A stretch of 64,000 bases of DNA, from NCBI RefSeq assembly GCF_002994745.2, contig NW_020126836.1, forward strand, positions 124,001-188,000, given 5' to 3'. The stretch is from Rosa chinensis (Eukaryota > Streptophyta > Magnoliopsida > Rosales > Rosaceae). The first letter of the stretch is position 1. Each line of letters begins with the position of its first letter. Both the position numbers and the translations under genes were made by a program. Positions 5,668 through 64,000 of this stretch are shown one piece after another. Under the pieces are notes generated by a model. The model was not told the DNA's origin. It saw only the letters and a program-made list of their open reading frames with translations, and searched no databases.

Positions 5668-5689
5668 CACTACAAAAAATAATTGCAAC

Positions 5690-28713: not shown

Positions 28714-31700
28714 TGTTGAGACCGAAAATTTCACAAACCCAAAATAAAAATTTTTGGTTCGATGCAAAAGTGAGTCCAGTATTTTTAGCTTAATTATCTC
28801 CAAAGCAGATAATTGTACAAGTTTGCTATGGCCAAAGAAGGTAGAGTCCTAGTTGTCTTCAAAGTTCAAATAAAACAAGAAAAGGAAGATCATGCATGCA
28901 TCACGTGGATTGTATTCAAGACCAAGTCAAGAATATTCAAATCATCCATCCAATGAGGATAACAAAAGTCACGACTTGATATCATTTGAACTGGTAGCAA
29001 TCAGATGACTCATTTTGTATCAAGTTTTCAAATTCAAATCCCATACTGGAAGTTGCGGATAATTCCCACGGTTGCAAGTTTGAATGCGGGAGTGGTTATC
29101 ATCATCTGAAGATCATTTCGAATTTAAAATCAGGGTTAACCTGCATGATCTCTTATTCTTCTACGTGCCTATTTAAAGAGCTCTTTACATGCAACAAAGG
29201 GGGGAGACGGAGAGAAATAGAGAAAAGAGTGAGTCAAGTTTTGTGCATCAAAGGAAGGCAGCGTTCAAGAGGAAGAGAGAGTAAAGAGTTCTAGTTACCT
29301 GGAGACGACAACCCGACGACAGGAGAGCTTCATATTCAGGTATCCTGCTGGTCGTTTCTTCAAGGTCTTCCTTGCTCGTTGCTAATATCTCCATGAGTGC
29401 AGAAAGACTTGCCTCTGCCTATTTCCATGTGGGCTCTGTAATCCTTCTTAAACAGCTCCGAAAACAAACCACTCCGGCCAAATATGCCAACAACACCATC
29501 ACAACTCACAAAGCCTCAAATCCCTCATTGTTGCCCACCAAAATCAGAAAACAAAACACCTCCATTTGCCTTTGTGTTAACAAACAGTGCAGGTTTAAAG
29601 AGACCAAGAAAAAAAGCACGTTCACAGAGATGGAGGAGGAAAAGATATTTCGGCAAGGGAAGAGGCTCACCCGTGTATTCTCGACCTTCTTTCGATGCCT
29701 ATATTGCGGTGCGTCCTGCGTATAGGTGGCGAAAGCAAGGTCCAACTCAAGGGGGTTTCACTGCACTCGTTTTTGATGCCTGTATCGCGGTGCGTCCTGC
29801 ATATGGGTGGCAAAGATGAGTGTCAAGTGAAACCTGGGGCTGCCGGTTCACGCCAAGTACAAATTAATCATGCTTCGACTCACAAAGCAAAGAAACTGCT
29901 CCGGAGGGATCTTTGTGCAACGCCAGATGTAAGAAGTTACTTCACCTGCAGCGAAGTCGTCACCAGAATGGTGCCCCTGAAAGTAAAGTGGTCGTCTCTC
30001 CACAGAAGGGTGCCTACCTCCAGCCGCAAGACTGCAGAGTGTTCGGTTTAGCTCACCTTCAATCAAAAGTCAGCAGCATGTTCACATGAGATAGCTAAAC
30101 TGCAGAAACACAAAGTGGAGGAGTGCAAACTATCTGATGCTTACGGCAAGCACATAATTGCAGGAGCATCACAAATATAAAGTTGTTCGATCAAGTTCAA
30201 GTGGTGAAAACGGTCATAGATAGCATTGGAAAATTCATTGTGCTACCTTCTTGTGGGTTACCCCAGCATGCATCGAGGATTGTTCTCGTACAATCAATCT
30301 TGAGACCACCTGAAAGCTACGTGGTGGACAAGAGCGAAGCGGGTCAAAGTCTTTTAAAGAACGGTTCCTGCATACAAATGACAGAAGGTCTTGAAACCAA
30401 TTAAAGAGAACTTTCTTTCTTGAACCGGTGACTTGATAAAAAAAAGGACAAAATATGACAAACTTAATTGTGTAATTGAAGCGGTGGTGCATCTAAACTA
30501 GAACTTGCTGTATGACAAAAGATGGCAAGTTTTAATTGAAAGATCTTTTGAGGCGGTGATGTGATCAGTAAGAAGACAAAGAAGCATATATGTCAAAGTC
30601 ACCGTCCTAAGTCTACTCACCCACAGCCTTCACAAACGCATGGCAATGATCATAAAGCAGCCTTGACTAGCAACGTGACACACCTCCAGTTCTACTTGTA
30701 TTGATTGAAAAGGCAATTAAATAGGTGGCTAATTAAAGCTTGATTAAACATGTGGTTCACATAGTGGAACCAACGAAATGATCAGTAGCATGTGGTTCAT
30801 AGTTTATATTTCAAGCCTCTTTCAAAGGATAATTGTCAAAAACAAAAATGAAAAGCAAGACAAGGGATAATTGGCTTTAAAAACGAGTTGGTTCTCCCCC
30901 GAAAATTGGTGCGGTCTCAGCCAGGCCTCCTACAAAAAAAATGGGAAGCAAGCCCATTTTAGAGCTAGTTAAAGACGGGTGTCTAAATCAATTATTCTGG
31001 TTTCATTGTATGATTCGGCGACAAGTGAAATACGGCAAAAGTCCATTGCACATCTCGACATGATGGGTGTCCAAAAACAATTACTCACTTGAAGCAAATA
31101 ACTATGGTTCCGGCGAAGAGTCATAAGCCCATTGCCCAGCTCGGCAAGATGAGTGTCCAAATCAAAATTGGCGGACACTCTACCAAATTGGGTGCTCACT
31201 CAAAAAACTATTTGATGGGTTCAGAATATACACATCCGTCAAACCCAAAGTCGGTACAAAACCGAAAATTCATTCTGATGAACTACAGTGGTTTGATCCC
31301 TTCACAGGGTATGTAGGCAGTCTAGCGACCCACTAGATGCAACCACAACTCCAAACAGAATCCCTGACTCCACCAATCAAATTCAACCAGTCCCAAATGA
31401 ATCACTGACTCCAGTCAAATTCTCCCAATAGCACAAAAAATCAAATCCATTCCAAATCACACAAATAAAGTCCGAACCAAATTCAAGGGCTTTAAATCCT
31501 CTCCCAAACACAAATTCAAAATAAATAGGTCATCTACCCATTTAAATCTCAAATGCCGGAACTACATGTGGTTTGATCCCGCAAAGGGTATGTAGGCAAT
31601 CTAGAACCAAATTTATCTAGATGCAACCACGTCCTAAACACAAAATCGAATCTCTGGTCCATTTAAACCAAATTCGTCCCAAACACTACTCTCATTCCAA

Positions 31701-32021
31701 AATCAAAGCCCTCCAATGAGTCATTCACTCATTGGAACTCTTGAACTACGAGTGGCTTGATCCCTCTCCAAGGGTACGTAGGCAACCCATTCAAATGTCC
31801 GGGTGCAGCCGCAAAAACAAACAAACACACATCTCATCAATTGGTTTCTTCATAAATGGAATCAAAGGGTGTTTCCCTGTAACAAGGGATTGTAATTAAG
31901 AGACACATTCTGTCTTGAATGAGTCGAACCCGAAATAATAAAAACTCTATTCACTAAATGAATACGAGTGAAATTATGTTGGGTGACATTTACGCTTACT
32001 GTGTGCAATTTTCTCTCAACA
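28714..32021 (+). repeat. 3' LTR of TR-GAG-B
   Basis: Starts TGTTGAGACCG, ends CTCTCAACA. Differences from the 5' LTR are scattered single bases and small indels. Confidence 0.92.
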
Positions 32022-41545: not shown

Positions 41546-41599
<54 letters not shown>

Positions 41600-41717
41600 C
41601 TCTATATATATTATTATATTATATATATAAACACACACATATATAAATATATATACATATATATAAACACACACACACACACATATATATCTCTATATAT
41701 ATTATATATATAAACAA

Positions 41718-41763
<46 letters not shown>

Positions 41764-41788
41764 CTCTATATATATATCCTCTATATAA

Positions 41789-41820
<32 letters not shown>

Positions 41821-41927
41821 CTCTATATATATATATTATATATATAAACACTCACACATATATAAATATATATATACATATATATAAACACACACACATA
41901 TATAAATATATATATACATATATATAA

Positions 41928-41959
<32 letters not shown>

Positions 41960-42066
41960 CTCTATATATATATTATATATATAAACACACACACATATAT
42001 AAATATATATATACATATATATAAACACACACACACATATATAAATATATATACATATATATATAA

Positions 42067-42105
<39 letters not shown>

Positions 42106-42441: not shown

Positions 42442-43621
42442 TCGTAAACCCAAGATCCATCATTCAAGTGAAGGGGTGAGATTCGATTAACCTGTCGTCT
42501 ATGGAGAGCAGTCATGTGGAAAAACTTGGAATTTCTATCACCCTTCAGCTGCCAGTTTACTCTTGACCTTTGGTGCCAGAAGCTTTCCTTAAGGGTCCAA
42601 ACTCTTTCTAATTCCATAATAATGTCACTTTCCTTGTTTCTATCAATAGGTGAGGCTGCTTGAATCAAAGCCAGCATCCTGTTAAGGGACTCGATTAACT
42701 TCCTGTTATTTGGAAATTTCCTCTTGCTGCACTCCTTGAGTCTACCTTGACAAGTCGAAAGCTTTGAATTAAGAAGCTTGTAAGCATTGACATCATTACC
42801 AATCGCCCAAGCATTCCGAACTATCTCTTCACACTCAGGATTTTCAACCCAGGCAGCTTCAAATTTGAAGAGCTTTACGATTCAGGGAGCAGGAGGTTTG
42901 AGGGAAACAAGAAGGGGACAGTGATCCGATCCGGTGTGAGCTAAATGGGTAATTTTTGAGTCAGGCAGGGCTTGAAGCCAGTCGGAATTTCCCAGAGCCC
43001 TGTCTAAACACTCTAAGATCAGGCCATCATCTCTCTTGTTCTCCTAGGTAAACTTGGGGCCACAAAAACCAAGATCAAAGAGAGAATTCGAGTTCATGAA
43101 ATCTTGCAGGAACCGAGGCCTATTCCAAGGAAGAGGGATACCACCTTCCTTCTCGTCATTCGAAAACAACTCATTTAGGTCACCAATACAAATCCAAGAC
43201 TGAGGAGGGACAGCCTGAAGGTTAGAAACAGAGCTCCAAAAGGAAGGTTTATCACTGGCATAAGGAGGACCATAAAACCAGGAAGCTTGAAAACAGGAAG
43301 TTATCATGTACCTAAGTAATTAGAGTATCAAGGACAGATAGACTTTTTGAAATAAATTCCACCTTAACATCCGGCCGCCACCTAGAGGGAAAGGCCACCA
43401 GCAGTCCCGACCGCAGGGACCAAGTTTCCCTTGTGATAGCCAAATCGGCGTCTCAGAATGTTTAAACGGTAATCAGATTGCTTTGTTTCAGATAAGAAAA
43501 TAACCGATGGAGAATGGGACTTTTGAGGTGTACTCATTGGGGACTTTTGAACTGTCAAGGCCTTCCCTAAACCCTGACAGTTCCAAGCGAGTAGTGTACT
43601 CATTGGGGACTTGTGACTGTT
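42442..43621 (-). pseudogene. LINE piece 3: AP-type endonuclease and linker
   Basis: On the minus strand the ORF opens near 43603 with MSTLLAWNCQGLGKALTV, the N-terminal motif of plant L1 endonucleases (WNCQGLG). Next come VIFLSETKQ (catalytic Glu), SWICIGDLNELFS (GD.N motif) and, after a stop at FCGPKFT (43044-43046, TAG), LDRALGN and GSDHCPLLV (SDH motif). The linker to the reverse transcriptase follows, with RVNWQLKGDRNSKFFHM (42677-42450), ending at the hAT junction. The enzyme nicks target DNA. Around 43530-43610 a 20 bp piece GTGTACTCATTGGGGACTT occurs twice, suggesting a short internal duplication. Confidence 0.88.
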
Positions 43622-46452
43622 TGTAACGTCCCGAACCTAAATTTACCAGTTTACAAGTCTTTCGATGGGTAAACGACATTTACATTTACTTTTTGGCTCC
43701 GTTTCGACATTTTAGGGGGCCCTAAAAGTTGACTTTTTGTTCGGGTCAAAATTTGAGAAAATGTTCTTCATGAAAGTTGTAGAGGACGTTAAACCGAGCG
43801 CGTGCATATGTGGTACGTAAAAATCGGAGTTCGTATGCGAAAGTTATACGCGAAAAATGAAAATTACTGTTCATAGTAAGAAGTATATATTTGAATTTTT
43901 TACTGTTGAGCCGGGTAAGTTTTCTTTTTCCTTCTCTCTTCTCCCTCCCGTGGTTTTCTATCTTTCTCTCCTCTGCAACTCTCTTCCCTCTGCAACTCTC
44001 TTTCCCTCCAGCATATCTCCTCCTCCAGACCACCAAATGGCGAGCTGCTGGCCTAGATAGACTCGTCTCCTCCTCCTTAACCTGCATGTGGGAGTTGTTT
44101 ACCGCGATTTGGCCGGAAATGTGGAGATCGAAGCCAACATTTTTACTTTAGCAAATTGGTCAACGCCGATTTCCGGCCACCTCCGGTCATAAAGTCAGGT
44201 CCATTAGAAGCGCCTTGAGCCACTCTTCATGCTTACCAAGTTTCAGAACCCAGATCGAAGCATGGAGGAAGAAAGCATAATTAGAAAATTTCACTATACT
44301 TCGGAGTGCTTAATTGTTCGGCCACTTCAAGGTATTTTCTGACTTTGTCACAGTTGAGAAAGTTATTGGAAATGTTGAGATGATGCTGTGGATGAAATTT
44401 GGTGGCCGGAGGAGGAGTTGGCCGCCGCATGAACAGTGTCACCGCATGAATAGTGCGGTGTATGAACAGTGATTTATATTATGTTTTTACTTTATTTTTT
44501 TTAGCTAGTTAAATCCTATAATTTTTGTAGAGGTTGAATATGTGAATTTGGTTGGAATTGGAGAAGTTTTTAATTGATTATGAATTTATGGGAATTTAAG
44601 ATTTCGATTATCGATTTACGAGAATCCGACCGTCGGATATCTCTTGGTTCTGACTTGGAACCTTTAAGATAACGAATTGGTATTAGATGTAAAATTTGGG
44701 TTGAATTAGAGAAGAAGTGGAGGGATGATTTATGAGGATTTGATTTTGAGAATCGTATTTGATTGTTGAATAGTTATTCACGGAAAATAATTGTGTACAG
44801 GGCGACGTACCGAGCTATTGCTCGACGAAGGAACTCGTATGCATGGTCGCCTAAATAGTACTGTGAGTGGACATTTGTTTTTAAATTAATTCCGCATGCA
44901 GTATTATTATTATTATTTTCTTCCAATTGAGATTTAATTATGTTTTGAATATTTGAGATTTAGTTTATCGAGATTTATTTATGGATTACGAGATTAGTAT
45001 TGAAATTCCTTCCCGAGGGCTTTTAGTAGATTTTTGAGATAGTCATTCATGAGTTATTGAGTTGGGAAATGATTTTCGGGAAGTGACTGATTCGGAAAAA
45101 TATTATGAGAATTATTGTTTTTGAATATCAGTTTTTATGAAGATATACGAGTGCGAGGGATTTAGCAAATATTTGAGCATGATTGATTTATCAAGATTTA
45201 TTGGGTTTTGAATTCCGCACTTATCAGACTTGGGTTAGATGGAGCTTTCTTTCCGAAAGCAATTATTGAATTATAGAGTATGTGATTATGCTTTCGAGGA
45301 TTTATTGAGATATCGAGGATTGAGTTAGCGAGTTATTACTGAGTTATGCTTTCGGTGAATTATTATTGATTTATTGAGGTAATATCGAGTTTCTTTCCGA
45401 AAGCAAGTGATTGAAAGAGGTTATTTTCAGTTCTTGAGGAGGCTATTCAGTTTATTAAGGAGGCCAGTTTTGGCGCATGCGTATCTTACCTAGTTGGCAG
45501 TCCCTTCTAGGTAATAGTCTGGTTGGCAGTCCCTTCCAGACTACAGCTCGGTTGGCAGTCTCATCCGATGCGTCACCTGGTTGGCAGTCCCTTCCAGATG
45601 ACATGAGGTAGTTAGTCGGCAGTCCCGTCTACTACCTGTGGTTAGTCGGCAGTCCTGTCTACTACATGTGGCTAGTTGGCAGTCCCATCTATCCACCGCC
45701 TCCTATTCCGGTTGGCAATCCCTTCCGATGCGTCATCTGGGTGGCAGTCCCTCCTAGATGGCATGAGATGACTAGACAGCAGTCCTTTCTAGTCATCAAA
45801 CGAGCCTCATGAAAAGGATGTTTTTATAAGGATTGAGGATGAGATTTTAAGAGATTTCAAGATGTTCTTGTTACGTGATTGAGATTTCAGTAAAGAGGAT
45901 GATTAAAAGTATTTCCAAGATTGTTACTGCATGCGAGGTTTTAGAGAATAACTTGGGAAAGCATTAAGTTTTACTTATTCATTTGAAATTACTTATTTTT
46001 CGTCCACTCACTCTAACGGATTTTAAATGTTTTCCCCTGGGCCCTTCGGTTTTAAATGCCCAGTTTGCAGGCCAGTTTAGCTTGAGGTCGAGCGTACTTG
46101 GGGTTGAGGCATAGCTGTCATATCTTCCGCATTATAAAAGCATCGGTCATTTATCTTGCTTTCTATTCTCTTGTTCGCCTGTATATTAGATTGCTCTGAT
46201 AACCTATGAGATTAATATTCTTAAATTCAGAATTGTTTATGAAATGAGATATGTGAGATGTTGTGATATAAGGAGCAGGGTGGCTCCAGGAGAATAAGGA
46301 TGGATGATTTAGAAGTGTGGATGTTTTTCTACAGGTTTTGGGTTGTCCATTTTTAGGGGAAATTCTGTCAATTTTTTGGTAGAATTTCTTCTAAAGTGGG
46401 CCCCGCAGGGCCTCTTCGGATTTCAGGGTGAAAACCGGGGCGGGTCCTGTCA
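43622..46452 (+). repeat. 5' LTR of the LARD element
   Basis: TGTAACGTCCCG...GGGTCCTGTCA. It contains the hairpin array (45486-45797). It shares the block GAAAGTTGTAGAG ... AAAATCGGAGTTCGTATG with the TR-GAG-A LTR. Confidence 0.92.
45486..45797 (+). repeat. Array of ten stem-loops with conserved loop, 5' LTR copy
   Basis: Ten units spaced about 25-45 bp share a loop near TTGGCAGTCCCTT, but each has its own flanking stem. TTACCTAG pairs with CTAGGTAA (8/8), TAGTCTGG with CCAGACTA (8/8), GTCACCTGG with CCAGATGAC (8/9), GTCATCTGG with CTAGATGGC (all, two wobble), GATGACTAG with CTAGTCATC (9/9). Others (GGTAGTTAG/CTACTACC, GTGGTTAG/CTACTAC, GTGGCTAG/CTATCCAC, GCTCGG/CCGATGC, CGG/CCG) are shorter or have a bulge or mismatch. 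Stem sequences differ between units yet stay complementary. Confidence 0.88.
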
Positions 46453-46470
46453 GTTGGTATCAGAGCACTA
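46453..46470 (+). other. Primer-binding site of the LARD, initiator-Met tRNA type
   Basis: GTTGGTATCAGAGCACTA follows the LTR end directly; TGGTATCAGAGC pairs with initiator tRNA-Met. Confidence 0.9.
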
Positions 46471-49400
46471 GGTTGTAAGATTCTGTAGACTTGTTTTGAT
46501 CTGGTTACCTTATATGCTTGATGTTACTCAGTACCTCCTGAGTGATGGCCCGACTGCAGCGGTTCCCCATCGTTTACTCTTCGGTGCTGAAGTATTCATC
46601 AATTATGTAAGGTACGCGGTTAGTTGATTTTCCTTCAGGTGCTATGCCTCTTATACGCCGACCTCATAGGGATCTGTCTGCATATCAGATTGTTTAAGTG
46701 TCTTGCACCTTTTCATGGTGATGGTGATGTTAGATTACTCTACAGGTTTGAGTTATGCTACGAAATGTGATCCGAGGGAATGTGGTGGTTATCTCTCCCT
46801 CGATGCCAACAAGTTTGTTGGGGTAAGGTTTAAGGTGCAAGACTGGAGTTCGATTTTGTGTTTGATTGTTAGAGTTGAGTGGACATAGCTTTGGGTTGTC
46901 TCTGTTTGCTATAAATTGCTTTAGAATCAGAATTGTTGATGGAAATGGAACTAGTAATATTAGTGGTTCTGACGTTGAACCAAGTTTCAGGAGATGTGTT
47001 ACGTGATGTGATATGGCATGTATGTGACATTTGTGATATCATTGATAGTTGTTGGAGATTACTTGGAAATCATGACTGGTTATCTTGGCTCTTTGACCTA
47101 ACCATGATATTTGGATTTTGTTTTGTTCGGATTGGAAGAAATTGATTTTTGATACATTGACTTATAATTGATCCTTTTGAAGTTGTGGATCGTATTGAGT
47201 AAGGAGATAGACAGAATTTAAGTTTGATATAGTTTTATGTTTGAAACTTGAATATTTAGTTGGACGCATAGAGCTTTACAGTCGAGTTACGATCTTTGTC
47301 AGTATTTAATTGAGAAGATTAGAAACAACTTTTGTATATGAGATTGTGCCTATGTGTGTACTTAATTGGTTATCCGTTTTGGCTGAAATGGTTGTACCTA
47401 AAGTTTGGAGAATAGCGGTAGTGATTTCGTTGGGTATTCATAATGGTGCAAGTGGAATTACTTGTGATACAAAGTATGATTCGAGTTATAAATTGAGGAG
47501 CCTTGAAGATTAATTGTGATAGATTCTTGGTGAAGTTTTTGCTAGACAGTTGGATTGTGATATTGTAAGAGTGGTTAGTGGAATAACTTTGAGGAAATAA
47601 GTTTCCTAGTTGGCTCCGGAAATACTTCTAATTAAGGTTTGACCAGAATTCTTGTTATATGTGGGTCAAACGTAATGCGGTTTGTCTTTGCAGTGACATA
47701 TTTTCAACGGTGATTAAATTGTGGAATTGGATCGGGTTGGATTAATTTCATATTCTAGTACCGCTTTGTATGATAAGAGAGGTTAGACGGGTATCTGTTT
47801 TGCATCAAGGTTGATGTTAAAGGAAAGACTCTGTGAACGGTGTTTGTCATCTAGGAAAATTGGTGGTTGCTTGAGTTGCATACATATACTAACAGATTGC
47901 TTTGAAGGAATTAAGTGAATTTTACTACCTTGGTACCGTTACTGGTGGTAATGGGTTAAACAGTTTGAAATTTAGTTTCACTTTGATCGATCTTTCTACC
48001 GTATGGTGACCCTTGATTGGAGAAGTATAGAAAGCTGTTGGTACGATTGATATTCGGTCACCATCACGGGTTTATAGGTACAATGACTTGGCAAAATGTT
48101 GGAGTTGAGTTTGGAAATTGTTTGTTTGGACTTGAGTTTTATCAAGGGTTTCAACTGACACTTGAAGTACTAGATTGTTGAGCGACTATGATTGAGTTGT
48201 GTTGTTGGATTTATGCTTAGCGAGATGAGGTTTGGGAAATTTTGGTGCAATCTTAGTTAGCACAGATTAGTTTTTGGAATTGTTGTTGTAGCTGGAATAT
48301 TATTGAATAAGTGCTGTTAGAGGGCGGATCTTCAGCTACTTTATCCTCAGTTTAGCGATGATTGTGTCACTTGGGGATATTGGCTTTGAGCCATGCAAGG
48401 AGAATTGGCTATACCCAAGTACTTGCAAGTTTGACATTGATTATTGGAATATTATGGTTAGAAACGCGGAGAAGAAAGAATGGACTACTTGCTAGCAGTC
48501 TGGTACAGAAATTTTGAACATGAACAGGTGTGCGAAATGTGTCGCCTTATGGCCAGCAAGGTATATATCAAAGAAGTTTCTCTAGTTAACTTAGATGTCA
48601 TCTCAAGGCTTTGATCAATGTTTTAGTTGGGTATCAAAGTAGCGCAAAGTAGCGCAAAGGAAGTGTAGTGACCCGATAACGTACTTGATTAAGAACTTAT
48701 AGGTTGGTTCGAGTCTATTCTTTGATATGCTTGACAACTATGGGACCTCTACGTGCACGACATTCGATCAGAAATTTAAGCACAAACAGACAAAAAGCAA
48801 GTGCGGTTTTGTGGTCGCTAAGGAAATTGGTTATTTCAGACATGTGGGTAAATGTATTATCATCATGTTGTTGGTGAACAAAGTGGATCTTCACTGTACG
48901 AGTTATATGAAAAAGAGTATGAATGTTACTATTCAAACTGAATAGTTTGTGATATTGATACCATGAGTTATTTGGACTAGTATTTGACCTAAATTTCTTG
49001 ACATCGAAGTTGTGTACTTGTGAGTATGTACTACTATATAGTTAGGTAAGACAAGGGTATCCAACTTGGAACATTGATACATTTGGGGTTCTAAGTATAT
49101 GTTTTTGGTTGCTTGTGTAATCGAGATTGTCGAGATTATTAGCTACTCCAGTCGTTGACTTAAGATTGCAAAGGGAAAACTTAATCCAAAGAAGATTTGA
49201 TTTTCGTTATGCAGTTTCAAGGTGTAGTTCGTTCAAGTAACATCGACCTTGATTTAGCCTTGAGTTTTATTCTGAAAATTTTAGTAGGTGTTTCTGCTCA
49301 TATAGTCGAACCATTTACAGGTTGCTTCAAACATAATGTTTTGACGATGTTCTCCCTCAGTTATTAAGGATTGTCAGTAATGAGTAGAAGTAAATCTACC

Positions 49401-49719
49401 TCCTAATACACTGAATTTAGTAAGAACGCTGTGGGAATTATTCAGATCACAATAATTGACTAGATTTCAGCTAGAAGATTGTTTCTTCTAAGGGTTGATC
49501 TCCATGTTCTAATTGGTCAAGTTTTGGATCAGTTTTGAAGGTAATTTCTACATGATTTGAGCAGACTTGCACATCTTTTCTGTGCCTTATCATCGCCATT
49601 GTTGTAGGATTGATGTGTTATTCATCTTCGTGACTGTTTACTATGGATTGACGTGTGCACCCATCTCTACTTCAACAGTATGGAATTTCGAGGACGAAAT
49701 TTTTATAAGAAGGGGAGAT
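46471..49719 (+). other. Non-coding internal region of the LARD
   Basis: About 3.2 kb without a reading frame that resembles gag or pol; the longest frames are under 75 codons and lack known motifs. It ends with GAATTTCGAGGACGAAATTT and the purine tract AAGAAGGGGAGA at 49707-49718. Packaging and dimerisation signals would be expected here but cannot be identified by eye. Confidence 0.7.
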
Positions 49720-52564
49720 TGTAACGTCTCGAACCTAAATTTACCAGTTTACAAGTCTTTCGATGGGTAAACGACATTTACATTTACTTTTTGGCTCCGT
49801 TTCGACATTTTAGGGGGCCCTAAAAGTTGACTTTTTGTTCGGGTCAAAATTTGAGAAAATGTTCTTCATGAAAGTTGTAGAGGACGTTAAACCGAGCGCG
49901 TGCATATGTGGTACGTAAAAATCGGAGTTCGTATGAGAAAGTTATACGCGAAAAATGAAAATTACTGTTCATAGTAAGAAGTATATATTGAATTTTTTAC
50001 TGTTGAGCCGGGTAAGTTTTCTTTTTCCTTCTCTCTTCTCCCTCCCGTGGTTTTCTATCTTTCTCTCCTCTGCAACTCTCTTCCCTCTGCAACTCTCTTT
50101 CCCTCCAGCATATCTCCTCCTCCAGACCACCAAATGGCGAGCTGCTGGCCTAGATAGACTCGTCTCCTCCTCCTTAACCTGCATGTGGGAGTTGTTTACC
50201 GCGATTTGGCCGGAAATGTGGAGATCGAAGCCATCATTTTTACTGTAGCAAATTGGTCAACGCCGATTTCCGGCCACCTCCGGTCATAAAGTCAGGTCCA
50301 TTAGAAGCGTCTTGAGCCACTCTTCATGCTCACCAAGTTTCAGAACCCAGATCGAAGCATGGAGGAAGAAAGCATAATTAGAAAATTTCACTGTACTTCG
50401 GAGTGCTTAATTGTTCGGCCACTTCAAGGTATTTTCTGACTTTGTCGCAGTTGAGAAAGTTATTGGAAATGTTGAGATGATGCTGTGGATGAAATTTGGT
50501 GGCCGGAGGAGGAGTTGGCCGCCGCATGAACAGTGTCACCGCATGAATAGTGCGATGGTGAATAGTGCGGTGTATGAACAGTGATTTATATTATGTTTTT
50601 ACTTTATTTTTTTTAGCTAGTTAAATCCTATAATTTTTGTAGAGGTTGAATATGTGAATTTGGTTGGAATTGGAGAAGTTTTTAATTGATTATGAATTTA
50701 TGGGAATTTAAGATTTCGATTATCGATTTACGAGAATCCGACCGTCGGATATCTCTTGGTTCTGACTTGGAACCTTTAAGATAACGAATTGGTATTAGAT
50801 GTAAAATTTGGGTTGAATTAGAGAAGAAGTGGAGGGATGATTTATGAGGATTTGATTTTGAGAATCGTATTTGATTGTTGAATAGTTATTCACGGAAAAT
50901 AATTGTGTACAGGGCGACGTACCGAGCTATTGCTCGACGAAGGAACTCGTATGCATGGTCGCCTAAATAGTACTGTGAGTGGACATTTGTTTTTAAATTA
51001 ATTCCGCATGCAGTATTATTATTATTATTTTCTTCCAATTGAGATTTAATTATATTTTGAATATTTGGGATTTAGTTTATCGAGATTTATTTATGGATTA
51101 CGAGATTAGTATTGAAATTCCTTCCCGAGGGCTTTTAGTAGATTTTTGAGATAGTCATTCATGAGTTATTGAGTTGGGAAATGATTTTCGGGAAGTGACT
51201 GATTCGGAAAAATATTATGAGAATTATTGTTTTTGAATATCAGTTTTTATGAAGATATACGAGTGCGAGGGATTTAGCAAATATTTGAGCATGATTGATT
51301 TATCAAGATTTATTGGGTTTTGAATTCCGCACTTATCAGACTTGGGTTAGATGGAGCTTTCTTTCTGAAAGCAATTATTGAATTATAGAGTATGTGATTA
51401 TGCTTTCGAGGATTTATTGAGATATCGAGGATTGAGTTAGCGAGTTATTACTGAGTTATGCTTTCGGTGAATTATTATTGATTTATTGAGGTAATATCGA
51501 GTTTCTTTCCGAAAGCAAGTGATTGAAAGAGGTTATTTTCAGTTCTTGAGGAGGCTATTCAGTTTATTAAGGAGACCAGTTTTGGCGCATGCGTATCTTA
51601 CCTAGTTGGCAGTCCCTTCTAGGTAATAGTCTGGTTGGCAGTCCCTTTCATACTACAGCTCGGTTGGCAGTCCCATCCGATGCGTCACCTGGTTGGCAGT
51701 CCCTTCCAGATGACATGAGGTAGTTAGTCGGCAGTCCCGTCTACTACCTGTGGTTAGTCGGCAGTCCCGTCTACTACATGTGGCTAGTTGGCAGTCCCAT
51801 CTATCCACCGCCTCCTATTCCGGTTGGCAGTCCCTTCCGATGCGTCATCTGGGTGGCAGTCCCTCCTAGATGGCATGAGATGACTAGACAGCAGTCCTTT
51901 CTAGTCATCAAACGAGCCTCATGAAAAGGATGTTTTTATAAGGATTGAGGATGAGATTTTAAGAGATTTCAAGATGTTCTTGTTACGTGATTGAGATTTC
52001 AGTAAAGAGGATGATTAAAAGTATTTCCAAGATTGTTACTGCATGCGAGGTTTTAGAGAATAACTTGGGAAAGCATTAAGTTTTACTTATTCATTTGAAA
52101 TTACTTATTTTTCGTCCACTCACTCTAACGGATTTTAAATGTTTTCCCCTGGGCCCTTCGGTTTTAAATGCCCAGTTTGCAGGCCAGTTTAGCTTGAGGT
52201 CGAGCGTACTTGGGGTTGAGGCATAGCTGTCATATCTTCCGCATTATAAAAGCATCGGTCATTTATCTTGCTTTCTATTCTCTTGTTCGCCTGTATATTA
52301 GATTGCTCTGATAACCTATGAGATTAATATTCTTAAATTCAGAATTGTTTATGAAATGAGATATGTGAGATGTTGTGATATAGGGAGCAGGGTGGCTCCA
52401 GGAGAATAAGGATGGATGATTTAGAAGTGTGGATGTTTTTCTACAGGTTTTGGGTTGTCCATTTTTAGGGGAAATTCTGTCAAATTTTTGGTAGAATTTC
52501 TTCTAAAGTGGGCCCTGCAGGGCCTCTTCGGATTTCAGGGTGAAAACCGGGGCGGGTCCTGTCA
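49720..52564 (+). repeat. 3' LTR of the LARD element
   Basis: Near-identical to the 5' LTR. One notable difference is a 16 bp insertion near 50552-50568 (ATGGTGAATAGTGCG region), a small tandem duplication. Confidence 0.92.
51598..51909 (+). repeat. Array of ten stem-loops with conserved loop, 3' LTR copy
   Basis: Same array as at 45486-45797. The second stem is damaged here (TAGTCTGG opposite TCATACTA), while the loop is intact; a few loop bases differ between LTRs. Confidence 0.88.
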
Positions 52565-52743
52565 CTGTTGGCCAGTCACCACCGTCCTGGGGAGGGGATT
52601 GCCCTTCCATAAATCCATCATGTGTTGAGGTTTCCACACTGTACTCAGAAGAATCTTCTAAAATTTCGATAGTAATCTCCTTGAACTCACCCAAATTGAG
52701 ACTGGGGTCAGGAAACTTACCCACCCTTCTCTTCCTAGAAGCA
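52565..52743 (-). pseudogene. LINE piece 2: C-terminal part of ORF1
   Basis: Between the LARD and the solo LTR a short minus-strand stretch is open: GKFPDPSLNLGEFKEITIEI followed by an acidic region and GDWPTV. It continues ORF1 from piece 1 and leads into the start of ORF2 in piece 3 once both insertions are removed. No conserved domain. Confidence 0.8.
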
Positions 52744-55480
52744 TGATAGGAGCATAAAATGCAACGTTTATAATGTTTAAACCCTATATTAATTTGCTAA
52801 GTTATTTCCTTTAACTTGATAAATTTAACTTAGTTAGTGTTTTTCATGTGAAAATGGAGTTTCAAGGTCTGAAAATGACTAAGGAATGCACAAAGGGCTC
52901 AGAAATGGAAAGAAATGAAGAAATGGAAGTTCTCCCAGTTTGACTAGGAAAAGGAATCCTAGTTGGAGTAGGAATCAAAAGCTGACTTGGATTCAAACTC
53001 TTAAGTCGCGGAAATTAGAAGTTCTACTTGCAAAAGGAAACCCAATTCTACTCAGATATGGAATCCTAGTGTGACAAGGAGTCTCTGTTGAATAAGGATT
53101 ACTCAAGAAGGTTCTGGAAGAGTGTAGAAGAATCGCAGAAAAGAAGTTTGTATTCAACTAGGAAACCTACTTGCATATGGAGTTCTACTCATACTAGGAG
53201 ACCTGTGGAAGCTAGGAGAAGTCTATGGAACGTACAAGAAGAATCTAGAAGTCTCAAGAAGGTCATATGCCGTGCACATGGAAGAGGAAGTCTTGAAGAA
53301 CTCGAATTACAAAGCAATGTGGAGTTTGGACTTCTTGTTGAGTAAGGATTGGACTTGTCGTGAGATTCTTGAAAGTTCTGGGGAGTTCTTGAAGTTTCTA
53401 CTTCAGAATAGGCGTGGAAGACATGTGAAAGGCATTTGATGCAAGGGAAAACGGAATTGGACTCAACTTGTGCCCCAAAAGTCAAATTCATTACAGATTC
53501 GGAAATCTGCCTGTGCAGATCAGTCAACTTCAACGGAGTGTCAAAAATAGCTCAGACCTCATAAAATTATGATCTTTATATGGTTGGAAATCTACAGATG
53601 TCTAGTTTTCAGATCTTTTTACGGTTCATCAATATCTATTTTCTAGAGAAAGTTATGGCCGTTTTAGTGGACTGAGGTCAATCCTGCTGGAAATCTGTTT
53701 TGTGACAAAGAAGTCCTAAATCAACACGAACTAAGAGAAGTCAAGTAGAAACGGATTGGGAGAGCCTTGGGACGTCCTCCTATGTATACCTTGTGTATTA
53801 GACATTTCAAGGTTAACAATTTTCTCCACAATTTCGTATTCTCACTTGTTCTCTCTAGTTTTCAGGTTTTCGCAATCTTCAAGGAGCAAGGCCGTGACCA
53901 TCCATCTTCCTAGCCGTGATCAACACTTGTGCGACACCTTGGAGCTGCTTTGGACCTTGGGACGTGATCAAGTGTTGTTCACACCATCATCTTCTCATGT
54001 ATTTTCACGGTTTTGGGTTTCTTGTAGTTAGAATTTCTGCTTTGGAATTTCTGTTGTGTAAACCGAAACTATGATGTGACAAACTGATTTTTGGATGCAA
54101 TTTTGATAGTTCTTTTCATGTTTGATGTGTTCATGTGTTCTTGATGTTGATTGATTGCCGAAATTAAAGAATAATAATCTGGTTTTATGCTTCATTACAT
54201 GTTAACGATTTTCTAAGTCTGACAAACAATTAGGATGACTTGCATGTAATTTGCTAGTAATTAGGGTTGATGCATTGTGAACCTTAATTCAAATAAGTAG
54301 TAAAGGCTTGCTTTGAGTCGAAATCAGATTATGCATGTGATGAATTGGCTTGCTTTGAGTGCTTGGATTTGCATGTTCGTCAATTCTTTCTTGAACTTAA
54401 TGATTTGAAAACGGATTTTCAACGCAGTTGCTTTGATTGTGTGATGTCTACTTTTCAAAATAAATTGATGTAGTGCTTTGCTATTTCGATTAACATAAGA
54501 AAGAAAGTTAAAAGGGACATTGGTTGCTTTGATCTTTGTGACTTAATTGATGGTGTTCTTGGCAATTAATAAAAATTAAGGGATGCATGAATATCCTGTT
54601 CTTGAATGGTTCTTGATGAATTGTTTTCCAAAAATTCTTCTTTTCCCACCTTTCTAAATATAAACAATTTTAATGTTTGTTTATTTTCTGGAAATTTTCT
54701 ATTTCAATCTTCAAAAACCCCCCATCTTTACTTTTTCTTGTTTGTGTAAGTAAATAAAATTAATTTAGATTTTTAGGTAGCATGTTAACTTAGTTAAATA
54801 AATAAAATAATAAAATAAAATAAAAATGTTTTCAATTCTTGAATAGTGTCTCCATGAATAGTAAATATGTGCTTGTATTAGTTTTAGTGTTTTTTTGGAG
54901 TTTGTTATGAGTTTGTTAGGGTTTCCTTAATTTTAGGGATAGGTTCCTTATTTTTAGGGAAAGTAGTTAGAGTTAGTTTTGACTTAGGAGTCCTAGTTTG
55001 ACTTTACTTCTAATTTGTTTCCTACTTGTATTTGACTTCCTAATCCTTATAGAAGTAGTAATCCTTGTTGTATGTGGATTTCTAATACAATTATGACTTG
55101 TAAATTGTGTATAAATAGGAGTAGAATTTCCATAACCTATTCTAACTTGTTTTCTCTCTTCTTTACGAATTGGTAGGCATATATATATACTTGTTGTTAT
55201 GTTTTCTTCCTATAATTGTTGTTTTCTAATTTCGTGTGAATTGTATGTGTATGTTTCTCTCTCCAATTCTTTTCTTTGTTGTTCTTCTCGAATTAAATGC
55301 ATGTTCGTATACTTGTAAACTTGTAATTTCTAATTTTCGTGTACTTGTATATTCTTCTCTTTAATTTGTTTCTCACATGTTAGCACCCTCAATCCCCGGT
55401 TTTGAACGATACCCTATTTGCTCTATACTAATGATGATTCTTTTCAGGGTTTAAATTGGCAATTGCTTTTGCATGTATCA
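52744..55480 (+). mobile_element. Solo LTR (family SL), 2.7 kb, inside LINE ORF1
   Basis: Starts TGATAGGAGCATAAAAT, ends TTTTGCATGTATCA, with the TSD AAGCA (52739-52743 and 55481-55485). Its ends are the inverse of those of 7821-9930. Near its end CAATCCCCGGTTTTGAACGA and CAGGGTTTAAATTGG match the other copy in reverse. The inner parts have diverged or differ in length. No gag, pol or primer site is inside, so it is best read as a solo LTR. Confidence 0.8.
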
Positions 55481-58024: not shown

Positions 58025-59749
58025 ATAAGACCTCAGAAATTTGTTATTAATTCCTAAATGTTTCCTGGGATTAATAAAATGTTCGTTTGTACGATTTCGT
58101 GGTTCGAGGGTGGAGTGGAATTATTTTCGGACGAATTATTATTCGAAGTGCTCGTTTTAGGGGGTTACGAAGTTTGACTTTTCATACGTTTAGATTCTGT
58201 GAGAACTTCCTTCACGAAAGTTGTAGAGCGCGTCGTTACGAATTCGTGGATATGCGGAACGCAAAAATCGGAGTTCGTATGAAAGTTGTGAGCAATTGAA
58301 AATTAGGAAAATTCTATAAATATAAGAAAATTTGGGAAATTTTCAAAGAAGGACAGAATTTCCAGAACTCCAGAAATCCCTCCCCATTTCACTCCCTAGC
58401 CCAGTTTCGCCCCCTCACCTTCGCCGGCAGATTTCTTCCTCCTTCGGCCACCTTTTGCTTCTATTCCAAAGGGAATCCTGCTCTCCTCAGTCCCCTCTAC
58501 ACGTCTGTGGTGGTGATTCGTCGTAGGAAGCACCGTAGACGACACTACAAGGCCGAGAAGTTGCACGGTGGAGCTGCAAATCGCCGGCCTTGGTTCTCCC
58601 AGCTCCGGCCACTTTAGCTCGAGTTCTTTGAGGGCTTTTCTAGCCCAGAGGAAGTAGAAGCTATCCCCAAGAAGCCTTGCAGCGATTTGATCGGTGGTGA
58701 TCAAATTTTGGAGTTTTTGAAACTAGGGTTTTTCGAATCCTTCGGCTTGCGAGGTAAAATTCTACTTTTTGGCTGATAATCTGATTATGGTGTAGTTATG
58801 AAAGTTTCAATTGGAGTAAAGATGAAGAACTTTCATGTTGGAAGTTTTGTCAAATTTTGACTTTGGTTTGGTGGTGGTTATTGGCTGCTTCCGGCCACCT
58901 CTAGGGCAGTTTCTGCCCTCAGTTCGACCTACTCGTCGATACGAGCATTTCGATATATAGTTTGTAAGTTTTGGAAATCGTATGAGCATGTTATGAATTT
59001 TCCAAGTTTTAGGGTTTTCGGTTCGATCGGTTTTCTATCTGTGAGGATTCGGCTGTCCGATCGACTTGTAGTTTTGATATAGTGATCGTATAAGTGTTCC
59101 GAAGACGTTGGATGGTCTCGGATGAGGATCTGACTGTTGGATCGTCGTATAATTGTGTTAAATTGTGTGCTTTGTGTTGTATTGAGTGTGACCTTGATGT
59201 GATTAGGTGATTGACGAAATTGTGTGAGTGGAGTTTGGACGATTTGGTGCTTATCTTGGTTTTGTGTGAAGACGCAGCAGGATATGGAGGTGAGTAAATC
59301 TCACGGTGTTTCGATCGATAAATTAGTTATGTTTAATTTAGTAGATTTAGATTTAATTGTTAGTATGCAAAATCATATTTATCAAAATAAATTATTTGTT
59401 TTAAAATATATGAACTTGATCAACAACGGTTCATGGGTAAGTTAAAACATGGTTTTGATATAAAATGATTTTCGAGTAGTTAATTTGTAAAACTATAGTT
59501 GGTATTAGTGGACATTCCTGCGTGAATGACTACATATATATATATATATATATATAATTACGTGGAATATATATATTGGTTGGTGTGACATTGGTGAGGA
59601 AATGATTGAGAGTTAATTGGATTGTCATTTCAAGTATTTACTCTTCGTGGCAATACATTATATCATGGAATGGTTGATTATATTGTGTTGAAAAGAGTAA
59701 CCGAGTGTTGGTGTAACATTTTGAGTTGTGTGGGACTTTTAAATGTTTT

Positions 59750-59860
59750 CGGATCTATGGATCTGGTGTCACAGTGGTGACTGTTTTTGGATCTATTGAT
59801 CTGGTGTCACAGTGGTGACTGTTTTCCGATCTACGGATCTGGTGTCACAGTGGTGACTGA
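59750..59860. repeat. Three tandem copies of a 36 bp unit in the LTR
   Basis: CGGATCTGGTGTCACAGTGG and TGACTGTTTT recur three times. The corresponding place in copy 1 (about 505-555) has one. Confidence 0.85.
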
Positions 59861-60234
59861 GGAATTATATCGGGAACCACGCCTTTGGCCGGGTGAGTTG
59901 TTACGATCAGTTAGAGATCTAGTCTGTCTGCCATTGTATATTCAGGGGAGTAACACGAGGGTTACATGAAGACTTTGAATACATGTTTTTAATTGAGAGT
60001 GTCGTGTGGGTTCTTTCTTTTATTGTCCAAGAGGGACTTGATTTTCATATTATGGTGAGTTGGGATAATATGATTTTTTATCACTTTTGTGATGTATGTT
60101 ACCTTAAGGGGTAAGGATGTCGAGTTTTGAAAACGAGTCATGTTGTGAGATGATTTATTTGGAGTTGATGGGTGATCATCGACTCGTTGTTTGACTTCTT
60201 TATCTATTTTCCGTATCATTCTAATTGTTTGATT

Positions 60235-60465
60235 TTAAATGTAATCTCCTGAACTAAGTCATATGCAGGGATTACTGTCTTTTGAATTGTTTGTTTTAAT
60301 GTAATCTCCTGATCTAAGTTATATGCAGGGATCACCGCTTTTTGAATTGTTTGTTTTAATGTAAATTCCTAAACTAAACTCTATGCAGGGATTTATATGA
60401 TTTCTATTGTTTGTTTTTAATGTGATCTCCTGAACTAAGTTTCCTTGCAGGGATTATTGATTTTA
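60235..60465. repeat. Four tandem units of about 60 bp in the LTR
   Basis: Each unit has TGTAATCTCCTGAACTAAGT and ATGCAGGGAT and a spacer ending TTGTTTGTTTTAA. The same array is at 13250-13470 in copy 1. Confidence 0.85.
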
Positions 60466-61112
60466 CTTAATTCAATTGTAAGTGTGGTTGTGGTTTGAGA
60501 CTTGTAGTGAGTTGTGAATGAGTTGTGAGCTCATCGTCTTGACAAATGCTTTATGTTGAGGGGAAGTGAATGTGATTTGGCGTTGAGATGATATGTTATG
60601 ATATGAACTTGATGTTTGATTGTGTTTTGTGAAATTAAATATTGTTGCTTTAATTCATCTCACTAGTTGAGAAATTATAAGCATGTGTGACGTGAGTTAC
60701 TTAATTGAGTCTACTCATACGGGCTGAAAGGCCTACCAGGTTTGTTTTGTTCAATCCCGGTGCACTATTCTATGGTGTAGGGTTTATTGAGCAGGTTTGA
60801 ATATCGAGTGATCATTATCAAAGCTAAAGTGTATGTTTGATGGCGTGGACGTGGAGGAGTGCTCTTAGTTTTAAGTCTTCCGCTGGATAGTGAGTTGTTG
60901 TGGGTGTGTTTACTTATTGAATTGTCATTCAGTTTGATTTGTAAACTATCTGTAATGTAATATGTGACTGTAAAGAACGAGTCGGTATTGACATTGTGAG
61001 CTCAGTTTGTTTGTTGCTTAGTTTAAATGAAAAATTTTCTATGTGTGTTTTCTTGTGTTTGTTCGTGCGTTTCGGATTTGAATTTTCTTTATTCAAAATT
61101 CGGGGCGTGACA

Positions 61113-63842
61113 GTTTGGCATCAGAGCATAAGGTACATATTTGGTGACAGTCAGTACTACTCGAGTGATGGCCCGTCTACAGCGGATCCCCATCATATAC
61201 TCTTCAGTATTGACATAGTCATTAGGTATGTGGAGTGTTAGGTGTCGCCTAGAGCGTTAAGTCGTCAGAGCATAGGTCTGCTCTGTAAGTGAAGTGTAGG
61301 AGCTTTGTGTAGCTTCTTTGAGTTGTAGTCTTTTGAGGAATGGGAACCTCTGGATTTAACTCTGATTGAGTCGGCGAGGATTGTTTTAGGGAAGTGATGT
61401 TCTTTTGTACAATTGAAGTTGGTTGTTGGGGTCATGGTGTTTGACCAATGCTTGTATCTGAGTTGGTACGAGTATTTGACCAGTAGTTGTTGTACTTTTC
61501 CTGAGTTGGATCGGCAGATGTTTTGGGGGCAGGTACTAATCAGGGGATAGATATCTTGTTTTATAGTGTGGCGTCTTAGTGGAGCATTTATTTCAACATA
61601 CGATTATCTGATTAAAGTAGCTCCAAGGTGTCTGTGCAGACCTTGTGTGCGGTTTGAGTTCTTAGTGTAGTTTTGAGAATGCTTGGGGGGGACGCTATGT
61701 CCACTAGGTGATGAATGCTGTGAGAGGTTGAGCCAAGGATAAGGCATGGTTCCCTTTCAGGAGGAGTTTTATTCGGTGGAGGAGGTAGTACAACTTGTTT
61801 CGTTGTTGTGGAGGCAGTTGATGCTACTCACCTATCTAGGCTGACTAGGGAGGTCACTGCGGAGAGCAGTGGCAATTCATGTTGGTTCAGATTTCCTGTT
61901 GGCCGATCAATGGATCGAAAACATGGAAACCTACTTTGATATGGTTGACTGTACCGACATGAAGAAGAAAGAGATAGCTACGTTCCTATTCAAATGTGAA
62001 GTAGGAAGGTGGTGGGATTTTGTGCTGGGGATTAGGATTATATCAACCATGACTTGGGAGATTTTCTGGAACTCTTTCGGAACATGTACCTTCCTACTCC
62101 AGTGAGGGAGAGGTTAGAGGGTGACTTCAATTACATTAGTTCAAGGGATTAGGAGTGTCAGGGACTACGAGGCTCGGTTCTCGTGGTTGTTTCAATTTGT
62201 TTGGTCAATGGATCTAGTGTTCTTGACTCGGAAGTTCCAGGGGGAAACTGAGTCTGGTGATTAAAGTAGGATTGGTTCTTTTTCAGTTGCAACATGTAGC
62301 ACTCATCGTTGCTAGTGCTTTAACATTATACAGGAACTCTAGACGTCTTGGAAGGAGATGACAATTCTGGAGAATTCCCGAGAAAAGGGGGGAAAGGTAG
62401 TTACAGACAGCAGTAGTGCGACAAGTACTCAGGGTGGGTCCTGGAAAGGGCAGAGGACCCATAAGTAGACTTCAATTGGTGTAGCTGCTGAACTTTGTTT
62501 GACTACACTAGTTGGGCAGGTAGAGCCTAGAGATGTTTCAGAGTGGGAGGTGTTTAACATTTATAAATTCTTGATTTTAGTGAAGCATTGTATTTCTGCA
62601 CATCTGTTTTGTGTTCTGAATGGCTTCGGTGTATCTAGCTAGATGTTTGGGTGTGGTCTGACTTCTTGGTGTGGTATTGAGATTGATTGTGTGGTGATGG
62701 ATTTTTGCATGATGTCTATAGTTAGACTTGTGCGTGTAACTACATTTTGCGGAGTGATACATCTCTATTGTTGTACAATGGTAATTTTCTATAATTTAGA
62801 TTTGTGTTGTGGATTGCCTTGTAGTGATGGTGTGTAGTGATGTAGCATGCAGAATTGTTGCTATGGAGATACACCATAATGTTGTTTAGGTAGTGAAGTG
62901 CCTTTTGTGGCAGTGCCTTTTTTAGCAGCTTTTGTAGCAGTGCTTGTGTGACAGGCAGCTTGTGTAGCAGTGCTTGTGTAGCAGCCTTTGTGGCAGTGCT
63001 AGTAGTGCTTTTGTAGCATCTTTTATGACAGTACTTGTAGTGATTGTGTGACAGTACTGGGTGGTGGTCTGTGTGACAATGATTATGTGTGTAATGTTAT
63101 GTGTTGATTTATGTGTGAGTATGGTCATTGTTGTGGTAATAGAGGATCTATACCACTTTGATTGTAATTACAAGGACAGGTGATAATTCGTGTGTAGGTT
63201 AGCTGAGGCTAGACTTTACTGTGATTTTGGTTATGAGATGGTAGGAATTGATGAGTGATTATGCATGCCTTATTTTGATGGTGATTGAGACCTTGGTGTA
63301 GTTTTGTTTAGTGAAACAAATTCCTTATGATTTGGAATGGTTTCACTGTGGCAAATTTATGTGTTGATTTAGTGATTGAAATGTTGTTATTTTCAATTCT
63401 TATGTAATGTTGGGGTTGTATGATTGGTGAAGTGATGCAGATACTGTTGTGAGGACAAGATTCTGGACTGTTGTTTTGTCTGTGTGATGTGCTGCAATTG
63501 CAGAGTTTTGATTCATGAAATGATTGTTTTACCATCAAGTGGGGTGGTAAAGTGTCGTAGTGTGGTGATGCTCGGTATTGTACCTGTATCAGTTGTTTGA
63601 TTATGGTACTGTTGGAAAGGGTATTGATGCAGCCATTGTGGATGATCGGCTTGTTTTTCCAGACAGGACTACATAGCAACTTGGATCGAGGGATATTCAC
63701 TTGTTCAATATCTTGTGGAGGCTTAACGACGAGTACATTACTTGCAGGAGGGCGTGGAATAGATTGAGAACGAGTTAGCCTTACCTGATTGTTGGGTAGT
63801 GTGCTTAAATTTCGGGACGAAATTTCTTTAAGGAGGGTAGAA
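61113..63842 (+). other. Internal region of TR-GAG-A copy 2
   Basis: 2.7 kb from primer site (TTTGGCATCAGAGCATAAGG) to purine tract. Only the gag remnant is coding-like. The imperfect short repeats at 62890-63130 correspond to 3020-3260 in copy 1. Confidence 0.8.
61869..62105 (+). pseudogene. Retrotransposon gag remnant (Ty3/gypsy type)
   Basis: This 78-codon frame contains LADQWIENMETYFDMVDCTD, EIATFLFKCEVGRWWDF and the following TMTWEIFWNSF, the central part of a Ty3/gypsy gag. It is longer than its partner at 4110-4301. The region just upstream (FQEEFYSVEEVVQLVSLLWR-like, 61757-61820) probably belongs to the same ancestral ORF but is frameshifted. No zinc knuckle or protease follows. Confidence 0.78.
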
Positions 63843-64000
63843 TGTAAGACCTCGGAAATTTGTTATTAATTCCTAAATGTTTCCTGGGATTAATAAGGTG
63901 TTCGTTTGTACAATTTCGTGGTTCGAGGGTGGAGTGGAATTATTTTTGGACGAATAATTATTCAAAGTGCACGTTTTAGGGGGTTCACAAAGGTTGACTT
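63843..64000 (+). repeat. 3' LTR of TR-GAG-A copy 2 (start only)
   Basis: Begins TGTAAGACCTCGGAAATTTG immediately after the purine tract GGAGGGTAGAA; continues beyond the window. Confidence 0.9.

Follow-up and report, generated by a model that had tools for sequence, protein, structure and literature searches.

The 64,000-nucleotide stretch of Rosa chinensis contig NW_020126836.1 analysed here (positions 124,001 to 188,000, forward strand; hereafter the window) contains a coding-free long terminal repeat (LTR) retrotransposon that resembles the large retrotransposon derivatives (LARDs) and carries an array of ten hairpins in each LTR. We propose, with a probability of about 0.45, that this array is a cis-acting structured docking signal of a Ty3-type chromodomain LTR lineage, which would serve multivalent protein binding in the element RNA. 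The proposal draws on comparison of sequences: a near-constant hairpin tip is reiterated on stems that differ from unit to unit and remain paired, tip and stems change slowly in lineages that still propagate, and the array is associated with coding and coding-free elements alike.

A sequence-only reading of this DNA had described ten successive units sharing a constant loop word, and ten units were indeed found when the sequence was read at 45486-45797. The same array, as had also been stated, recurs in the 3' LTR (LTR2), with five differences in 312 positions from that of the 5' LTR (LTR1). The constancy of the loop word holds for its inner part only: the core GGCAGTCC is exact in seven of the ten LTR1 units and one mismatch off in the remaining three, whereas the 13-letter word TTGGCAGTCCCTT is exact in just three. 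With up to two mismatches, TTGGCAGTCCCTT has 19 matches in the window (eight in LTR1, nine in LTR2 and two elsewhere), compared with a chance expectation of 1.55 on average and seven in the largest shuffle. The core folds as GG-CAGTC-CC; the unit-specific stem follows beneath it, set off by one or two mismatched positions that are mostly pyrimidine. Across 687 units from 76 arrays, the core is GGCAGTCCC in 455 units; in 42 it is AGCAGTCCT, in which a G-C pair has become A-T by compensated change. Pyrimidines occupy both sides of the two positions beneath the core in 88% and 79% of these units, and where one of the two positions is paired the other is mostly still a mismatch. Both positions are paired in the last unit of L093-L096, which makes the mismatch a usual feature with exceptions.

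The stems of units 3 and 8 are short (~3-4 bp), and a bulge occurs in units 5 and 6 (Table 1). When the 312 bases were folded alone, eight of the ten units formed their own hairpin (all except units 3 and 8), and all ten did so in a longer fold (45441-46620). Relative to shuffled sequences, the RNA fold of the array has a z of -5.9 on the plus strand (-123.5 kcal/mol) and -5.1 on the minus strand. GGAGGC ahead of unit 1 and GCCTCC after unit 7 may form a helix that closes units 1-7 into one multi-branched domain; in a survey of 76 arrays, which includes four with too little upstream sequence, all six positions pair in 53 (three of these with a two-sided change), a mismatch occurs in seven, and one or both sides were not found in 16. 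A covariance model of the unit, run over the window with E values up to 5, placed all of its 16 matches within the two arrays (16 of their 20 units) and none elsewhere. Applied to L079, L091, L080, L023, L024, L012 and L028, which are further rose sequences associated with the array or the element, it gave 28 matches, all inside arrays and none of them in L091. An Rfam scan of 43500-53000 returned no matches at gathering scores. Chance or artefact was rejected as the source of the array, given 4743 adjacent core pairs genome-wide and none for the reversed pattern. Viral contigs were also considered as array carriers and rejected, since ten contigs with one match each of one short pattern were taken as chance.

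The arms differ between units yet remain complementary, as the sequence-only reading had claimed. Between LTR1 units, left arms are 43% alike and cores 92% alike, and arms fit their own partners (mean score 7.35) better than permuted ones (5.50), with none of 20000 permutations as good. In seven other arrays, one of which is that of LTR2, between 0 and 14 of 20000 permutations matched the own-partner fit. When every detected unit of the window LTR1, L013, L012 and L028 was counted (34 units, four arrays), 84.1% of cells were paired, compared with 68.8 +/- 1.5% in shuffles, and both sides had changed with pairing kept in 75 cells, compared with 27 +/- 6; these two-sided cells fell to 13-23 when the partner was shifted by 1-3 columns. 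The units of an array are mutually related, so the shuffle figures are not strict probabilities. This all-unit count is the fair one, an earlier count having used well-paired units only (6/10 of LTR1, 7/10 of L092 and 4/9 of L094).

Two LTR families have the array: family A, which includes the window element, and family B. Their flanks align only in short pieces upstream of the array and mostly over ~60-240 bp downstream. Once inserted, a retrotransposon copy decays; the terminal branches of a tree therefore mostly record mutation, and lineages that still propagate show on the internal branches. Whole arrays were aligned with their flanks, excluding six arrays assignable to neither family. In family A (37 sequences), the ratio of internal to terminal change was 0.17 for the loop, 0.10 for GG/CC, 0.42 for the stem, 0.60 for the spacer, 1.31 for the mismatch positions and 1.17 for the flank; the corresponding values in family B (33 sequences) were 0.24, 0.18, 0.38, 0.43, 1.22 and 0.74. 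Comparison of the core with flank and spacer gave p = 1.3e-14 in family A and 9.8e-7 in family B, and comparison of the stem with the flank gave p = 3.7e-8 and 0.0028, respectively.

Because these copies had been found through the array, the analysis was repeated with copies found through a 117-bp block of the LTR, whose core pattern has 440 genomic matches, compared with none for a reversed-pattern control. Forty copies were picked among 100 matches listed of the 440, all on contigs C1 and C2; 20 were chosen for a variant block sequence and 20 are mostly typical. The sequence-only reading had held that absence of the array from most family members would speak against it, and 39 of the 40 block-found copies have 3-13 hairpins. 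In the fortieth (L111), other sequence replaces most of the array, with hairpin 10 still at the end. Internal changes per column in these copies were 0.12 for the loop, 0.13 for GG/CC, 0.26 for the stem, 0.37 for the spacer and 0.60 for the flank, and terminal changes were 0.74, 1.27, 0.99, 0.77 and 1.09, respectively (Fisher test, core versus flank p = 1.2e-6; stem versus flank p = 0.003). Per site and relative to the flanks, internal branches have ~5x fewer changes in the core and ~2x fewer in the stems, whereas this is hardly so on terminal branches. The mismatch positions beneath the core change freely and stay mostly pyrimidine. We read the internal-branch slowing as purifying selection on core and stems, also in the coding-free family. 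Core rates on terminal branches may be inflated by methylation-driven decay, which has no bearing on how low the per-site rate is on internal branches.

Orthologous stems were also compared across 69 arrays, these being the distinct rows with at least six assigned units. Watson-Crick pairs fill 3290 stem cells, compared with 3024 +/- 73 under a tree-based null (0 of 300 simulations as high), which indicates that pairing is kept beyond the null. A-C cells are fewer than expected (133 compared with 233 +/- 39), as are other mismatches and, more weakly, G-T cells. Shared compensated changes exist, such as C-G to T-A at pair 8 of unit 10 (nine units) and G-C to T-A at pair 10 of unit 2 (six units). 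In an RNAalifold analysis of 12 arrays, 11 of 69 pairs had at least one two-sided change, with a covariation term near zero.

Hairpins per array range from 3 to 15. In a first survey, four of 80 sources (L044, L057, L062 and L070) were without a cluster of three hairpins, and one (L001) was the window LTR1 again. At G000:C1:8494154-8494904, array parts lie ~550 bp apart, probably owing to an insertion inside the array. One element, L079, sits between the family-B arrays L023 and L024 and has gag, protease and integrase matches: Pfam gag, RVP_2, Integrase_H2C2 and SH3_Tf2-1 are above cut-off and Chromo is below it, with no reverse transcriptase match in the pieces given. A second gag-pol element, L091, lies between window-like arrays, and its internal DNA is 87% identical to L079; Retrotrans_gag, Ty3_capsid, RVP_2, RVT_1, RT_RNaseH and SH3_Tf2-1 are above cut-off, while rve (E 1.4e-4) and Chromo (E 8.8e-5) are below it. 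Between them, these partner elements possess the gag, protease, reverse transcriptase, RNase H and chromodomain-bearing integrase of Ty3/gypsy chromoviruses, some of these domains being below cut-off, and their lineage may be Tekay-like (Tekay/Del), judging by the LTR, polypurine tract and integrase end motifs. Coding-free relatives include L080, which is without a frame of 100 aa and is 89-94% identical to the window element, and the divergent L012, in which the first 0.8 kb of the internal part is 87.5% identical and the array is kept. The array therefore belongs to a coding lineage and its coding-free relatives. The sequence-only reading had spoken of packaging or dimerisation of a coding-free RNA; the array is not special to such RNA, and a limitation to coding-free copies was rejected because the gag-pol elements L079 and L091 are flanked by arrays.

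The window element shares with L079 and its LTRs the array, the 117-bp block, the LTR end with the primer binding site and leader (239 bp, 78%), 41 bp at the polypurine tract and LTR start, a promoter-like 93 bp (70%) and 44 bp at 44861. The parts common to the LARD and L079/L023/L024 appear to be roughly those that trans-mobilisation would need. Exchange within arrays is evident in L036, whose chimeric array (~1468-1848) has family-B-like units 1-4 and family-A-like units 5-10. Hybrid units of the kind that recombination would make number 50 among 1046 that could be classified (54 of 1100 could not), a count that carried little information.

In RNA, the predicted unit is a CAGUC loop closed by GG/CC, usually with one or two pyrimidine mismatches, on a stem that would be free in sequence provided that pairing is kept. 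Many copies of one constant tip, set on sequence-free stems, would be expected of an RNA on which proteins dock in a multivalent way. The array would most likely act in the element RNA, with transcription running through it: TATATAT at 43884 and the CT-rich stretch that follows suggest a start near 43915, which would place the array ~1.6 kb into the RNA, and the array would also lie near the RNA 3' end if the poly(A) site is beyond it. Several protein copies could then bind the constant tips, most plausibly copies of the coding relatives' Gag and otherwise of an export or host factor, and through this avidity the RNA, coding or non-coding, would reach the particle or the site where it assembles. 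Gag-mediated packaging would be our first choice of role and export the second. Since the array is under constraint in coding-free elements, its role is probably in cis, in the spread of the element that carries it, and not in gag translation. We hold more tentatively, at somewhat longer odds, that the array may be the pass by which partner proteins recognise the coding-free element, kept by selection in parasite and partner and exchanged by recombination. Loop-loop dimerisation, another role raised in the sequence-only reading, is unlikely because the loop is not self-complementary; kissing-loop contacts were rejected as neither CAGTC nor the core GGCAGTCC is palindromic. Small-RNA production from stems of 8-10 bp also seems unlikely. 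If the array is indeed such a pass to the partner proteins, we know of no mobilisation signal of a plant LARD that was defined earlier. The array is a short, testable candidate for the means by which coding-free plant retrotransposons are packaged and copied by others. No description of such an array was found in a full-text literature search, which was thin and does not establish absence from print; in the published account of the rose genome (PMC6786968), neither 'LARD' nor 'hairpin' occurs in the main text.

Several results weigh against a docking signal in RNA. An R-scape-like G-test with a tree-based null gave no significant stem pair among the 69 arrays (the one significant pair of 4350 is not a stem pair), so the covariation that was to be sought across family copies does not rise above the null in orthologous stems. 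Double changes along the tree show no excess (43, compared with 36.8 +/- 14.7 under the null). Changes from the paired state break the pair in ~53 of 86 cases on internal and ~137 of 219 on terminal branches, and only six and seven of these changes, respectively, are two-sided and keep the pair; with pair-breaking equally common on both, propagating lineages are not better at compensating. Selection on a folded nucleic acid, as claimed earlier, is the best reading and is supported by between-unit pairing, presence in 39/40 copies and internal constraint, but not by orthologous covariation, which is not significant. Uncompensated stem mutation, which had been named as an outcome that would contradict that claim, is partly seen: most stem changes break the pair, although pairing as a whole is kept beyond the null. 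In the block-found copies, the difference in rate between stems and spacers is marginal (p = 0.05), stems being the slower. A wobble strand test found 144 G-T and 98 A-C cells overall and ~27 and 22 changes on internal branches, respectively, and both strands fold well, so that RNA and DNA are not distinguished. The Fitch/FastTree reconstruction ignores recombination, which occurs in arrays (L036), and the trees are therefore approximate. Finally, no zinc knuckle turned up when L079 was scanned for motifs, so that no RNA-binding domain of the proposed partner was identified; the test is a weak one, as it also missed other pol motifs that were sought.

Much of the evidence for docking would equally fit an RNA export or stability element, whose hairpins would recruit a host export or RNA-binding factor, in the manner of the constitutive transport elements of simple retroviruses, so that the long unspliced RNA leaves the nucleus: here, too, a constant tip reiterated on free stems is expected, in coding and coding-free elements. 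For the LTR retrotransposon Cer1, an element protein is reported to be required for genomic RNA export (PMC10309623). Nothing export-specific was found in the present analysis, however, and we regard this explanation as unlikely. We give slightly less credence to an element acting at the DNA level, either as ten protein binding sites (enhancer-like) or as cruciform-forming palindromes in the LTR. Many copies of a short constant word within one LTR do resemble a transcription-factor array, and the minus strand folds nearly as well as the plus strand, but a double-stranded site needs no unit-specific complementary arms of the kind that 0 of 20000 permutations equalled, and the putative TATA box would put the array ~1.6 kb inside the transcript.

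Matching stems could also arise without selection if template switching during reverse transcription copied arm onto arm, with the loop word either selected or merely duplicated. Such self-correcting palindromes would account both for arms that differ between units and still match and for the lack of excess double changes along the tree. We nevertheless consider them improbable, a little more so than a DNA-level element, as most units retain the mismatches built in beneath the core, 18 of 50 distinct unit-4 sequences have the C-A mismatch of that unit, and the stems are constrained on internal branches. The same constraint, together with own-partner pairing and the conservation of the array between families whose flanking LTR sequence hardly aligns, makes a functionless minisatellite, formed by tandem duplication plus chance, very improbable; already disfavoured, this explanation would fit the variable unit number, the recombination between arrays and the many stem changes that break pairs.

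The element that carries the array (Table 1) has the features of a whole LTR retrotransposon: two TG...CA LTRs, which are 98.7% identical over the aligned match in a window self-comparison, a target duplication, a primer binding site and a polypurine tract. Its internal part (46453-49719, 3267 bp) contains no frame longer than 108 aa, the longest being a stop-to-stop frame on the minus strand (frames of at least 70 aa were listed, and were not compared with protein families), and 43500-53500 contains no stop-to-stop frame longer than 133 aa. Judged by frame length, the internal part lacks coding capacity, as a LARD does. One review gives a size rule for LARDs of an internal part >4 kb (PMC9033089), which the ~3.3 kb of the window element misses, so the label is loose and we use LARD-like. 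The promoter-like stretch is also matched by L013, L034 and the L079 piece, and not by L018, L020, L024 and L027. The 117-bp block is conserved between LTR families that have otherwise diverged; it contains a CTGGGC/GCCCAG inverted repeat and is possibly a processing or start signal. Pairing between the array loop GCAGTC and its reverse complement in the leader, the word GACTGC (46552-46557), was considered and set aside, as this word is intact in four of the six leaders read (the window element, L036, L080 and L079; not L091 and L012).

Table 1. Features of the LARD-like element and its hairpin arrays, in window coordinates.
Feature	Position	Strand	Basis
LTR retrotransposon, whole, coding-free, LARD-like	43622..52564	+	LTR self-match, ends and target duplication
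5-bp target duplication CTGTT	43617-43621 and 52565-52569	both element sides	ends read in sequence
5' LTR, TG...CA, 2831 bp	43622..46452	+	self-match and read ends
Promoter-like stretch, TATATAT at 43884	43786..43890	+	93 bp align at 70% with family-B LTR L023
GGAGGC, left side of possible helix closing units 1-7	45459..45464	+	alignment fold and longer fold
Ten-hairpin array, LTR1	45486-45797	+	ten units
Hairpin 1, TTACCTAG / CTAGGTAA	45486..45514	+	sequence and fold
Hairpin 2, TAGTCTGG / CCAGACTA	45515..45543	+	sequence and fold
Hairpin 3, short stem TCGG / CCGA	45548..45568	+	forms in longer fold, not in 312-base fold
Hairpin 4, GTCACCTGG / CCAGATGAC, one C-A mismatch	45572..45602	+	sequence and fold
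Hairpin 5, AGGTAGTTAG / CTACTACCT, one bulge	45606..45637	+	sequence and fold
Hairpin 6, GTGGTTAG / CTACTAC, bulge and wobble	45638..45665	+	sequence and fold
Hairpin 7, GTGGCTAG / CTATCCAC	45668..45696	+	sequence and fold
GCCTCC, right side of possible closing helix	45698..45703	+	alignment fold and longer fold
Hairpin 8, short stem	45708..45727	+	forms in longer fold, not in 312-base fold
Hairpin 9, GTCATCTGGG / CCTAGATGGC, G-T wobbles	45732..45762	+	sequence and fold
Hairpin 10, GATGACTAG / CTAGTCATC	45767..45797	+	sequence and fold
117-bp block	45954..46070	+	common to 7/7 family-B LTRs compared, 76-85% identity; L027 only 87 bp
LTR end, primer binding site (46455-46466, TGGTATCAGAGC) and leader	46336..46571	+	78% identity to gag-pol element L079
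Polypurine tract AAGGGGAGA, just before 3' LTR	49710..49718	+	polypurine tract and LTR start inside 41-bp match to L079
3' LTR, 2845 bp	49720..52564	+	self-match and read ends
Same array, 3' LTR	51598..51909	+	ten units

Elsewhere in the window, a large inverted duplication spans 1-5669 and 58026-64000, in which 2152-5669 matches 64000-60503 (96%) and 514-2306 matches 59783-58026 (92%). A 3.3-kb direct repeat (22992-26299 and 28715-32021, 99.3%) with 2.4 kb between its copies probably marks another long-LTR element, of recent origin and with little internal sequence. Imperfect AT dinucleotide sequence of ~490 bp lies between CA and AC runs at 41547-42091.

LARDs such as Sukkula of the Triticeae are gypsy-type elements with a coding-free internal part, long LTRs, a primer binding site and a polypurine tract, and are presumed to be mobilised in trans. 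The window element is like them in its coding-free internal part between long LTRs and in its primer binding site and polypurine tract. Conserved RNA structure has reportedly been described for the internal domains of Sukkula, whereas the structure in the rose element consists of reiterated hairpins in the LTR and is also found in gag-pol relatives. Dasheng and RIRE2 form a comparable pair of a non-autonomous LTR element and its putative autonomous partner, for which we know of no hairpin array. The constitutive transport element of Mason-Pfizer monkey virus presents repeated constant recognition parts on stems, as two internal loops in one stem, in contrast to the ~10 separate hairpins of the array. 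Like the packaging and dimerisation RNA of Ty3 and retroviruses, the array would be a structured, cis-acting part of the genomic RNA of LTR elements. In yeast Ty3, dimerisation has been proposed to proceed via short palindromic sequences and the packaging sequences are said to lack a precise definition (PMC11381356); the rose loop, by contrast, is not a palindrome, and that description of Ty3 includes no reiterated constant-loop array. L1 and Alu are non-LTR elements with a stem-loop at the 3' end in place of an array, but this stem-loop is likewise common to a non-autonomous element and its partner, and is hypothesised to recruit the partner's machinery (PMC5135761).

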